The notes under the pieces were generated by a model that saw only the letters and a list, made by a program, of their open reading frames with translations, was not told where the DNA came from and did no database searches. From contig JAJDOA010000044.1 in the NCBI GenBank assembly GCA_022340405.1, positions 1 to 33,222 on the forward strand: 33,222 bases of DNA, given 5' to 3'. A program made the position numbers and the translations under genes. Below, one piece after another: positions 27,827 through 32,369 of the stretch (its first letter is position 1; each line of letters begins with the position of its first letter). The stretch is from Desulfobacteraceae bacterium (GTDB taxonomy: Bacteria > Desulfobacterota > Desulfobacteria > Desulfobacterales > JAJDOA01).

Positions 27827-28342
27827 ATGATGTACAACAAGACCGTGATGGACCACTTTCGAAACCCAAGGAACGTCGGGGTCATCGAGGATGCGAACGG
27901 CGTCGGAGAAGTGGGCAATCCGCTGTGCGGTGACATGATGACCATCTATCTCAAGATTGATAACGACCGCATCGAGGACATCAAGTTCCAGACCTTCGGT
28001 TGTGGTTCGGCCATCGCCGTGTCCAGCATGCTCACCGAGATCGCCAAGGGCAAATCCATCGAAGAAGCCAAGAATATCACCAACAAGGACGTGGCCGAAG
28101 CGCTTGAGGGACTGCCGAAAAACAAGCTGCACTGCTCGAATCTTGGAGCGGATGCCCTTCAGATGGCCATCAAGAACTATGAAAACCGCAAAGCCGGCGT
28201 CGAGACCCCGGAGCCTGTCCGGAAGGACAAGCACGAACACAACCACGGAGACGCGTGCTACTGCCCGTATTGCGACGTGGAGGTGAGCGAAGGGGCGTCC
28301 TTTTGCGAGGCCTGCCAGAGGGACCTGGACGAGGAACACTGA
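27827..28342 (+). CDS. iscU: IscU/NifU-type Fe-S scaffold with C-terminal zinc ribbon
   Basis: A 171-residue protein. Residues 1-125 are an IscU scaffold with the three cluster cysteines C34 (NPLCGD, with D36), C59 (FGCGSA) and C103 (LHCSNL). Beyond the normal IscU end is a His-rich linker (KHEHNHGD, about 135-142) and a zinc-ribbon-like pair CPYC (146-149) and CEAC (160-163), an uncommon tail. The scaffold receives sulfur and iron to build Fe-S clusters in the cytoplasm. AGGAGG precedes the double ATG by eight bases (27827; 27830 is possible). The desulfurase-like gene follows after 24 bp, so the two form an operon. No IscR, HscA or ferredoxin gene accompanies them. Confidence 0.93.
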   Translation: MMYNKTVMDHFRNPRNVGVIEDANGVGEVGNPLCGDMMTIYLKIDNDRIEDIKFQTFGCGSAIAVSSMLTEIAKGKSIEEAKNITNKDVAEALEGLPKNKLHCSNLGADALQMAIKNYENRKAGVETPEPVRKDKHEHNHGDACYCPYCDVEVSEGASFCEACQRDLDEEH

Positions 28343-28366: not shown

Positions 28367-29539
28367 ATGCGCATCGTTAATTTGGACCACATTTCTTCCA
28401 ATCCCCTGCTTCCGGAAGTGAAGCAGGCGATGATCGAAGCCATCGAAAAAGACTACGCCAATCCCTCCAGCCAGCACCAGCGGGGAGAAGAGGCCGCCCA
28501 GGCCTTGGCCGATGCGAGAGCGTCGGTGGCGGCCCTGATCGGAGCCGAATCGCCCAAGGAAATTATATTCACATCCGGCGGCACCGAATCGGACAACCAC
28601 GCCATCAAGGGCATCGCCCTGGCCAACGCCAAAAAGGGAAAGCACATCGTCACCTCCAATATCGAGCACAATGCCGTCATTCGAAGCTTGCGGCGCCTGA
28701 AGGGGCAGGGGTATACGCTGACTTCCCTGGGCGTGGACGAAACCGGTCGGGTCAACCCTTCGGATGTGGCCGATGCGATCACCGACGAGACGATCCTCGT
28801 TTCCGTCATGCACAGCAACAACGAGACCGGAACCATCCAGCCCGTCGAGGAGATCGGCGCAATCTGCAGAGAGCGGAAGGTGATCTTTCACACCGATGCG
28901 GTGGATTCGGTGGGGGTGGTTCCTTTCGACGTCAAGGAGATGAAAGCGGACGTGGTGAGTTTCGCCTCCAACCCCTTTTACGGTCCCGTCGGCGTTGGCG
29001 GCCTGTACGTCCGACGAGGAACGATGATCTGGCCGCTGCTGGACGGTGGTGTCCAGGAGCACAACAAACGAGGGGGAACGGAAAATCTCATCGGCATCAT
29101 CGGAATGGGCGTGGCCGCGGAAAAGGCCCGCACCGACATGGAGCAACGCCTGACCCATTTAAAGGGGCTCCGCGACCGGCTGCTTACAGGACTTCCCGAA
29201 CACATCGACGAGTACATCATCAACACCCACCCGGAACACAGTCTTCCCAATCTGATTTCCATTTCGGTCCAGTACATCGAGGGCGAGAGCGTGATGCTCA
29301 TGCTCGACGACGAAAACATCGCCGTCTCCACACGGTCCGCATGTGCCACAGGATCGCTGCGGGCTTCCCACGTGCTGCTTTCCCTGGGTTTGAGTCATTC
29401 GGATGCACAGGGAACGCTGGTGATCTCCTACGGCATCGACAACACAGAGGAGGACGTGGACCGGTTTGTGGCCTCGCTGGGCAAGGTGGTGAAGACGCTG
29501 CGGGATATATCGCCGCTGTATAAAAAAACACACTCGTGA
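28367..29539 (+). CDS. NifS/IscS-like cysteine desulfurase lacking the PLP lysine
   Basis: A 390-residue class V aminotransferase-fold protein. It retains FTSGGTESDNHAIKG (68-82), SNIEHNAV (97-104), HSNNETG, HTDAVDSVG (175-183), RGGTEN and the cysteine loop STRSACATGSL (C326 as persulfide cysteine). The canonical Schiff-base motif S-x-H-K-x-x-GP reads ASNPFYGP here (200-207): His is Asn202 and the lysine is Pro203. The Gln that normally lies in DAVQ is Asp180. A free-standing PLP enzyme should not work this way, so it may bind PLP differently, use another sulfur source, or be structural. A. fulgidus IscS is a known case lacking this lysine. Start ATG at 28367; the gene follows iscU and overlaps the next gene by four bases. 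Confidence 0.92.
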   Translation: MRIVNLDHISSNPLLPEVKQAMIEAIEKDYANPSSQHQRGEEAAQALADARASVAALIGAESPKEIIFTSGGTESDNHAIKGIALANAKKGKHIVTSNIEHNAVIRSLRRLKGQGYTLTSLGVDETGRVNPSDVADAITDETILVSVMHSNNETGTIQPVEEIGAICRERKVIFHTDAVDSVGVVPFDVKEMKADVVSFASNPFYGPVGVGGLYVRRGTMIWPLLDGGVQEHNKRGGTENLIGIIGMGVAAEKARTDMEQRLTHLKGLRDRLLTGLPEHIDEYIINTHPEHSLPNLISISVQYIEGESVMLMLDDENIAVSTRSACATGSLRASHVLLSLGLSHSDAQGTLVISYGIDNTEEDVDRFVASLGKVVKTLRDISPLYKKTHS

Positions 29540-30672
29540 ACATCGCCTGCTTCGTCAGCGCCCACGGATTCGGCCATGCCACGCGCACGGCGGCTGTGAT
29601 GGCGGCCCTGCACCACCGGCGTCCGGCGGTGCGCTTCGAGATCTACTCGGAAGCCCCTGCCTGGCTTTTTGAAGAGTCGGTGGGTGCAGGCCTCACCGTG
29701 CACCACGCGGTGAGAACCGACGTCGGACTCGTCCAGAAATCCCCCTTGGAGGAGGACCTGCCGGGCACCGTTGCGGCGCTGGAGGATTTTCTCCCCTTTT
29801 CCACCGCCCGGGTAGAGGCGCTGACACGGCAGGTTCTCGCCGCCGACTGCCGTCTCGTTCTCTGCGACATCTCTCCGTTGGGGATCGCCGTGGCCGAGGC
29901 CGCCGGCCTGCCCTCGGTTCTGGTGGAGAACTTCACCTGGGACTGGATCTACGAGGGTTACTTTCAGAGAGAGGCCGGGTTGCGGGAACCGGCCCGGTAC
30001 CTGCAGAGGCTGTTTTCATCGGCCGATCTCCACATTCAAACCGAACCCGTGTGCCGCCCCGAACCCGCCGCCATTAGGGTGGCCGAGCCCGTGTCCCGCC
30101 GCCCCAGGCAAAGCGCTGCCATCGTGAAGGCCCAGTTGGGTATCGCGGAGGCCGACAAGATGGTCCTGCTGACCGTGGGTGGGGTAGCCTACCGATGGGA
30201 GGGGCTGCACCGCCTGCAAGGGCTGTCGGGTGTTGTTTTCGTGGTGCCGGGCGCCGCCCCGGCCTTCGAGCGCAGAGACAACCTCGTCGCCATCCCCCAA
30301 CGCTCCGGCTTTTATCACCCCGACCTCGTGGCCGCCGCCGACGCGGTGGTGGGAAAGCTCGGCTATTCCACGCTGGCCGAAACCTACCAAGCCGGCGTAC
30401 CCTTTGCCTTCCTCGCACGGCAGGGGTTCCGGGAGACCGCCCCCCTGGCCTCCTTTGCCGAGAAAAAAATGGGCGCCATCCGTCTCCCCGACGACGCACT
30501 GGAAGACGGAGGCTGGCTGGAGGCTCTGCCGGGGCTTCTGGAAAGGTCCCCGGACGCAAAGGGGCCCGGAAACGGCGACGATGCCGTAGCGGAGATATTG
30601 GCATCCAAACTGCCCCTGGAAACGCCCCCCAGCGGATTGAACAAGACCGGATTGCAATCGTCCCCTCATTGA
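29536..30672 (+). CDS. GT-B-like glycosyltransferase-fold protein
   Basis: A 378-residue protein with a GT-B-like fold resembling family 28/MurG-type transferases and the N-terminal half of sugar kinases of the arabinokinase type. It opens with CFVSAHGFGHATRTAAVM, whose AHGFGH loop is typical, and the second half has LLTVGGVAYRW (about 214-224) and KLGYSTLAETYQAGVPFAFLAR, the donor-side block. Substrates are unknown. The start is a GTG at 29536 that overlaps the desulfurase TGA (GTGA), so translation is coupled to iscU-nifS, although no functional link is obvious. The C-terminal tail after about 345 is low-complexity. The 218-bp gap to msrA holds repeat A copy 2. Confidence 0.75.
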   Translation: MNIACFVSAHGFGHATRTAAVMAALHHRRPAVRFEIYSEAPAWLFEESVGAGLTVHHAVRTDVGLVQKSPLEEDLPGTVAALEDFLPFSTARVEALTRQVLAADCRLVLCDISPLGIAVAEAAGLPSVLVENFTWDWIYEGYFQREAGLREPARYLQRLFSSADLHIQTEPVCRPEPAAIRVAEPVSRRPRQSAAIVKAQLGIAEADKMVLLTVGGVAYRWEGLHRLQGLSGVVFVVPGAAPAFERRDNLVAIPQRSGFYHPDLVAAADAVVGKLGYSTLAETYQAGVPFAFLARQGFRETAPLASFAEKKMGAIRLPDDALEDGGWLEALPGLLERSPDAKGPGNGDDAVAEILASKLPLETPPSGLNKTGLQSSPH

Positions 30673-31731: not shown

Positions 31732-32331
31732 TCAGGGAAAGTACACCAGCTCCCGCTCCAATTTGTAGGTCCAGGGCGCTCCGGAATTCTTCCAGCCGTT
31801 GACGACCCGCTTGCCGTTGTCGTCGCTGGCGGGATCTCTCAGCGAATCACCCTCGAACCCGTCGATGATGTTGTACACCTTCTGAAATCCCGCCTGGGCC
31901 AGCCGGTTGACGGCCGCGGCGCTTCTACCCCCGGAGCGGCACATGACCAGAATGGTGTCGGACTCCTTGTATCGTGCTTTCACATCCGCGATGAAATTAT
32001 CGTTGAGCGGCATGTCCGGCCTCAATGTCACCGGATCCACTGTATTCTTCAGGAATGTGAACGGAATATTGACGGCCATGGGGGCATGGCCGACGAAAAT
32101 GTATTCCGCCGGGGTCCGCACGTCGAGAATGTGGACCGTGTCCGGGCTTTCGGACCATTTCTCCCACGCCTGACGTGCGCTCAGGTACAGATGCAAAAGG
32201 GTCTGCTTGCTTTCGGGAACGGGCATGTCCGCCCAAGCGGTGGATCGACACCCGATCGCCAGAAAGGCGACCAGAACCCACAGGAAAAATCGAGCCCTGT
32301 TGTTGAGGAGGCTTTTTTGTATTGGCAGCAT
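31732..32331 (-). CDS. Rhodanese-domain lipoprotein
   Basis: A 199-residue exported protein. The N-terminus has a basic region (KSLLNNRAR) and a hydrophobic stretch ending FLAIGC, a lipobox with C28; cleavage after AWA (near 34) is an alternative. A single rhodanese domain follows: VHILDVRTPAEYIFVGHAPMAVNIP (66-90) and the active-site loop MCRSGGRS with C131, then the domain end NIIDGFEGD. Rhodaneses carry sulfane sulfur as persulfide, here probably in the periplasm. The tail (NGWKNSGAPWTYKLE) resembles that of periplasmic rhodaneses in sulfate reducers. The ATG at 32331 has AAGGAG five bases upstream; the ATG at 32367 lacks a ribosome site. It follows the cupin remnant and AhpD-like gene on the same strand. 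Confidence 0.9.
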   Translation of the reverse strand: MLPIQKSLLNNRARFFLWVLVAFLAIGCRSTAWADMPVPESKQTLLHLYLSARQAWEKWSESPDTVHILDVRTPAEYIFVGHAPMAVNIPFTFLKNTVDPVTLRPDMPLNDNFIADVKARYKESDTILVMCRSGGRSAAAVNRLAQAGFQKVYNIIDGFEGDSLRDPASDDNGKRVVNGWKNSGAPWTYKLERELVYFP

Positions 32332-32369
32332 ACCGACTCCTTGTGGACTTGTCGTTTTGTATGGCAATC

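Follow-up and report, generated by a model that had tools for sequence, protein, structure and literature searches.

The stretch of DNA analysed here (the window) comprises 33,222 nucleotides of contig JAJDOA010000044.1 from a Desulfobacteraceae bacterium, and encodes an IscU scaffold protein followed on the same strand by a protein of the IscS family (Table 1). The iscS frame runs from ATG to TGA without an internal stop. The AF2 model of its product, built from an input of 84 sequences, has a pLDDT of 93.6 and a pTM of 0.92, with the Cys loop (residues 325–330) as the only part below 50. The model has the IscS/NFS1 fold, with TM scores of 0.89–0.96 across the top 30 structure matches, and NFS1 and the IscS proteins of E. 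coli and A. fulgidus are among its matches (TM about 0.9 or above).

Table 1. Features of the iscU-iscS pair in the window
Feature	Position	Strand	Evidence
IscU scaffold, 171 aa	27827..28342	+	Pfam NifU_N, E 1.3e-52; above NCBIfam TIGR03419 cut-off; stop 24 nt before iscS ATG
IscU C-terminal zinc-ribbon-like tail, CYCPYC-x10-CxxC	28256..28321	+	Weak match to Pfam PF13240, E 7e-4, under cut-off
Lysine-less IscS (type A), 390 aa	28367..29539	+	Pfam Aminotran_5 (PF00266), E 8.9e-75
Asp180 at the PLP-contact site Gln183 of E. coli IscS	28904..28906	+	Alignment; Asp in 67/71 type A
ASNPFYGP, aa 200–207, Asn-Pro for PLP His205-Lys206	28964..28987	+	Alignment to E. coli IscS
TRSACATGS persulfide-Cys loop; Cys326 at 29342–29344	29330..29356	+	Loop alignment
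Val352 (motif GTLVISYG) at the substrate-binding Arg354 site	29420..29422	+	Alignment

Neither hscA, hscB, iscA nor fdx was found beside the pair in the window, where the neighbours are EamA, CutA and an ORF without assignment. In this the pair resembles the MIS/IscSU2 minimal systems, which also consist of two genes, IscS and IscU, with no chaperones or carrier alongside; the published account of MIS, however, includes an active cysteine desulfurase (PMC12192291, in excerpt), whereas the window pair lacks the residues for one. An ORF at 29536–30672 overlaps the iscS stop by 4 nt; it is glycosyltransferase-like by eye, has no Pfam match, and no counterpart beside iscS was found within the short flanks searched in relatives. 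A rhodanese that looks exported is encoded at 31735–32367, not adjacent to iscU-iscS.

In the pairwise alignment, SFSGHKIYGP of E. coli IscS corresponds to SFASNPFYGP in the window protein, and the full set of changes is His205 to Asn, Lys206 to Pro, Gln183 to Asp, Ser203 to Ala and Arg354 to Val, with Cys328 kept. The preliminary description of this DNA had read Asn-Pro in place of the His-Lys motif, Asp for the Gln of DAVQ, and a retained persulfide Cys326 with its loop, all of which the alignment reproduces, while a second catalytic loss, that of Arg354, had been overlooked. Its argument that the four base changes separating AAC CCC from CAC AAG make a sequencing slip unlikely can be put more strongly, as sequencing or assembly error is excluded by the 71 distinct relatives described below, in all of which the lysine is missing. 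The change of Ser203 to Ala was rejected as part of the signature, because it is also found in 30/30 distinct canonical sequences of the group termed type D. The window protein falls below every curated NCBIfam desulfurase cut-off (best TIGR03402, 451.6 bits against 530.75), which is weak evidence, since L001, a canonical desulfurase of the same genome, is likewise under the cut-off (466.0 bits).

The type A subfamily and other lysine-less IscS proteins

A similarity search found the subfamily of the window protein, termed type A, in 67 of 291 genomes of the class, with 61–77% identity and the next relatives at 45%. Class genomes, together with relatives on other genome contigs, gave 71 distinct type A sequences. 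The His205 site is Asn in all 71, and the Lys206 site is occupied by seven different residues (Pro in 29, Thr in 24, Ser and Arg in 6 each, Gln in 3, Ala in 2 and Gly in 1). Homologues all with lysine, which the preliminary description had named as evidence against its reading, are thus not what is found, lysine being present in 0/71. At the Arg354 site there is Val in 60, Ile in 5, Leu in 4 and Met in 1, with one row unreadable. The persulfide Cys is present in 71/71, as are Thr76, His104, Asn155 and Asp180. The third position before the Cys is basic in all type A proteins (Arg in 59 and Lys in 12 of 71), and is Gly in 135/135 lysine-bearing and in 39/39 readable other lysine-less sequences. 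The C-terminal SPL of IscS is found in 70/71 type A sequences versus 0/30 of canonical type D, and type A retains the longer SPLY motif; an SPL-type C-terminal motif docks IscU. Across 16 type A pairs, some of which are the same genome twice, dN/dS was 0.038–0.178. These values and the open frames reject a pseudogene, and the stops flagged in 6 type A rows came to 0 within the aligned proteins.

Of 97 type A loci (among them window copies and genomes that occur more than once), 95 have iscU immediately upstream in the same orientation; the other two are at contig edges. The cluster-site residues of IscU (Y3, C37, D39, C63, H105 and C106) are retained in every covered type A row. In the short flanks, iscU is the only conserved neighbour; of EamA, CutA, the ORF after iscS and MsrA only CutA recurred, at one locus. 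Among 68 distinct IscU tails of type A, 64 have the form CxCxxC-x(9-13)-CxxC; this His-preceded, Cys-rich, zinc-ribbon-like tail is missing from the IscU proteins that we examined in canonical groups. It does not mark lysine-less pairs in general: outside type A it occurs in 7 of the 26 type B loci that have iscU, and in no other group.

That all the 44–46% relatives in the class are canonical also proved wrong. A second lysine-less lineage, type B, occurs in 18 of the 291 genomes, and has the motif SGxSLGAPKG, Ser or Ala at the Lys site and Thr76 changed to Ala (type B loci L160–L162, L164, L166, L167, L169–L171, L178, L187, L191 and L234–L251). Here iscU is downstream, sometimes several hundred bp off, and three genomes (G221, G263 and G267) carry both types.

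We compared 111 distinct sequences without the lysine and 135 with it; they were collected by similarity searches from a small number of queries and are not a census. Neither Gln183 nor Arg354 is kept in any of the 111 lysine-less sequences (the Arg column being readable in 108), while both are kept in 135/135 lysine-bearing ones; Cys328 is retained in every readable sequence, 110/110 among the lysine-less ones. Lys206, Gln183 and Arg354 are therefore lost or kept together, with no exception where readable. Database records place the lysine-less proteins in six phyla: Desulfobacterota (types A and B), Aquificota, Planctomycetota, Chloroflexota (Dehalococcoidales), Verrucomicrobiota and Nitrospirota. 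In a 96-row tree, from which the six signature columns had been removed, the 39 bacterial lysine-less rows form one clade (97 bootstrap / 95 SH-aLRT), which persists (95) when about 100 pocket columns are left out. Branches of the lysine-less sequences are long, and the tree model is designed against long-branch attraction, though not immune to it. Joining A. fulgidus IscS to the bacterial clade is not rejected (p-AU 0.504); the free tree has two changes.

The preliminary description had cited A. fulgidus IscS as a precedent, and rightly so. In this protein (IscS2; PDB 4eb5, 4eb7, 4hvk, and D199K in 4r5f) the Lys is replaced and His205 is Asn (SSNDIYGP), Gln183 and Arg354 are lost, the Cys is kept, and there is a paired IscU of 153 aa. 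It differs from type A in being archaeal, 40–42% identical by structure search, and in having Gly instead of Arg/Lys before the Cys. M. acetivorans IscS1 is similarly reported to lack the catalytic lysine and to lie in an iscSU cluster, but it is archaeal and insoluble alone (PMC7585200, in excerpt; compared by description only). A third case is the Aquificota-type IscS-IscU complex of PDB 9wfy, where Lys, Gln and Arg are lost (TAHLMYGP) and the Cys kept, as in type A, whereas Thr76 and Asn155 are lost as well. Aquificaceae relatives of the 9wfy IscS fall inside the bacterial lysine-less clade, and no iscU was seen beside the gene in 14/14 Aquificota-type loci (one at a contig edge).

Desulfurases and Fe-S systems of the host genomes

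The preliminary description had proposed looking for a further, canonical desulfurase. The window genome (4.0 Mb, 93.7% complete) has one: L001, on contig C309, with the His-Lys, Gln, Arg and Cys all intact. No scaffold gene was found beside it, and no SufB/D was found in this genome, in a search whose control matched 14/14. Two divergent NifU_N proteins are encoded, neither with an adjacent NifS. A divergent NifU_N protein without NifS on contig C300 (L121) lies near an Mrp/NBP35-like ATPase, by ORF reading, and may serve these anaerobes as an additional Fe-S carrier. Loci L004 and L005 (contigs C154 and C156) appear to be one lysine-bearing class-V aminotransferase (AWKWLTGPIG) split over two contig ends, which from its sequence looks like an epimerase/SufS-like relative.

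Among the 67 type A genomes of the class, 11 have SufB/D, versus 128 of the remaining 224 (Fisher p 2e-9, a value that ignores shared ancestry). A canonical NifS, termed type C, is found in 43 of the 67 (E at most 1e-130) and is missing in 24, 17 of which also lack SufB/D. We scanned 16 genomes with the Aminotran_5 profile, and the strong matches were recovered as loci and read by sequence. Four genomes have as strong members only type A and phosphoserine aminotransferase, a count of matches stronger than E 8e-11; they contain no lysine-bearing class-V desulfurase among these strong members, and no SufB/D. Their completeness is 99% (G007), 93% (G053), 99% with 6% contamination (G277) and 97% (G038, in which the type A gene is truncated at the end of a contig). 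G038, G053 and G277 are three species of one genus (g29), and G007 belongs to another family. All four carry dsrA, which does not discriminate type A hosts, its cut-off being passed by 248 of 291 class genomes. Three further genomes with the same pattern were kept out of the firm set: G138 and G191 because their congeners G069 and G010 have a canonical desulfurase, so that incompleteness is possible, and G133 because it is 91% complete. In G103 and G208 no canonical desulfurase was seen and SufB/D is present. The sole strong family member in six Aquificaceae genomes is lysine-less, counting strong matches in genomes for which completeness is not given.

A possible IscU partner supplied with sulfide

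In type A IscS the lysine, glutamine and arginine have been lost together, while purifying selection has maintained the fold, the Cys loop, the SPLY motif and the iscU neighbour. Reaction with cysteine is very unlikely, judging from the sequences, because Lys206 and Gln183, which are needed in E. coli IscS, are gone; the K206A and Q183E variants of the E. coli enzyme have no desulfurase activity (PMC9978102, in excerpt). Loss of the Arg would by itself prove little, because the R354K variant matches the wild type in activity (same excerpt). The pocket may still hold PLP or a different ligand, because Thr76, His104, Asn155 and Asp180 are kept in all type A proteins. Excerpts of the same report describe E. 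coli K206A as inactive yet retaining some PLP, and a figure legend (PMC9769115) shows PLP in A. fulgidus 4EB5, the Lys to Asp protein.

We consider it probable that type A IscS is not a desulfurase and is instead dedicated to the neighbouring IscU, which it docks and to which it lends its Cys, the sulfur coming from inorganic sulfide. The type A dimer would bind IscU, and Cys326 would swing into the IscU assembly site, where it might act as a transient ligand or as carrier of one sulfur, like Cys321 of A. fulgidus IscS. The sulfur would be the sulfide that sulfate reducers make in quantity, not cysteine, and the basic residue beside Cys326 might, more speculatively, hold the thiolate, HS− or a persulfide. 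Excerpted reports offer precedents: Cys321 of A. fulgidus IscS completes the ligation of a [2Fe-2S] cluster on IscU (PMC9769115), the A. fulgidus protein has no desulfurase activity (PMC7585200), and the authors of the latter report proposed for it and for M. acetivorans IscS1 a ligand role without sulfur supply. In anaerobic E. coli H2S rescues the deletion of iscS and not that of iscU (PMC13015791, in excerpt), and in M. jannaschii sulfide is the sulfur source of SMS (PMC12192291, in excerpt). SMS (SmsCB) resembles the pathway proposed here in assembling Fe-S clusters without a desulfurase and with sulfur from sulfide (same excerpt), and differs in its scaffold, SufB/C, SufB/D being missing in the window genome and in most type A genomes.

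The preliminary description had suggested that sulfide-rich anaerobes use such a pair with inorganic sulfide or another donor, keeping the desulfurase as a scaffold. The loss of the active-site residues and the conservation of the Cys loop and of the IscU partner agree with this, whereas L001 in the window genome would, taken alone, permit supply in trans. Cysteine-derived supply is indeed possible in most hosts, because 43 of the 67 type A genomes encode type C and the window genome encodes L001. The persulfide would then be relayed from a canonical type C NifS or a type D protein such as L001 to Cys326, and from there to IscU; type D, which lacks an SPL-type C-terminal motif (30/30), would need an adaptor. 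Such a relay is nevertheless the unlikelier account: the six Aquificaceae genomes have a single strong family member, which is lysine-less. Moreover, the four dsrA-bearing genomes of 93–99% completeness without a canonical desulfurase or SufB/D indicate that a desulfurase in trans is not the general answer, and they favour sulfide or another non-cysteine donor. Type A as the only such protein in a few sulfate reducers suggests that clusters are built from sulfide there. The donor could also be a sulfane-sulfur carrier (a rhodanese, a TusA/Dsr-type protein or polysulfide), from which Cys326 would pass sulfur to IscU with neither cysteine nor free sulfide involved. The strictly conserved Cys loop with its basic residue is what persulfide handling would lead one to expect, but no carrier is linked to iscU-iscS among the neighbours tested, the window rhodanese being non-adjacent and apparently exported, and we regard this route as rather doubtful.

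Two further readings concern the protein itself. That it has remained a PLP enzyme, with non-covalent PLP and a shifted catalytic base, carrying out desulfuration or another reaction, would fit the invariant PLP-contact residues and the PLP in 4EB5; the variation of the Lys site among seven residues, the absence of Gln183 and Arg354 and the inactive E. coli variants make it improbable. Least credible is a copy that is decaying or solely regulatory and takes no part in cluster making, to which the loss of catalytic residues and the canonical NifS-NifU also present in 43/67 hosts might point. Such a copy would be hard to reconcile with dN/dS of 0.04–0.18, with 61–77% identity across 67 genomes, with an invariant Asn at the 205 site and an invariant Cys328, or with the strict iscU linkage and the status of sole IscS in several genomes.

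A wider version of the sulfide-fed, Cys-lending role is that an ancient monophyletic bacterial branch of IscS abandoned cysteine chemistry and turned into a PLP-independent co-scaffold dedicated to IscU, making clusters from environmental or respiratory sulfide, and that some sulfate reducers and Aquificota rely on this 'sulfide ISC' pair alone, without a class-V desulfurase. We put this forward tentatively, as somewhat short of an even chance. If true, it would be the ISC-type counterpart of the sulfide-fed SMS. It bears on how Fe-S clusters are assembled in anaerobes that live in sulfide and on whether cysteine desulfurases have always been needed, a question of which genomes whose only IscS lacks the residues for the cysteine reaction are a direct test.

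Lysine-less IscS proteins of A. fulgidus and M. acetivorans and the Aquificota-type complex in the PDB are already known; the bacterial lysine-less clade, its three-residue signature and its use as sole IscS are new, as no publication on any of these was found in a search that most subscription papers lay outside. Lysine-less IscS scores as a cysteine desulfurase in family searches, and pathway reconstructions may consequently be wrong for sulfate reducers, anammox planctomycetes and Aquificota. Proteins in which Lys206, Gln183 and Arg354 are all gone and Cys328 is kept can be re-annotated by that rule. Our literature search found no publication on 9wfy and its variants. PDB entries 9wfy, 9wfe, 9wfb, 9wf8, 9wew, 9wer and 9wep hold 406-aa 'cysteine desulfurase' chains that vary at PLP-pocket positions, and from these differences the variants 9wep–9wfe look like an engineered, stepwise reconstruction of the PLP site, from a lysine-less parent of Aquificota type to a form with His-Lys, Gln and Arg.
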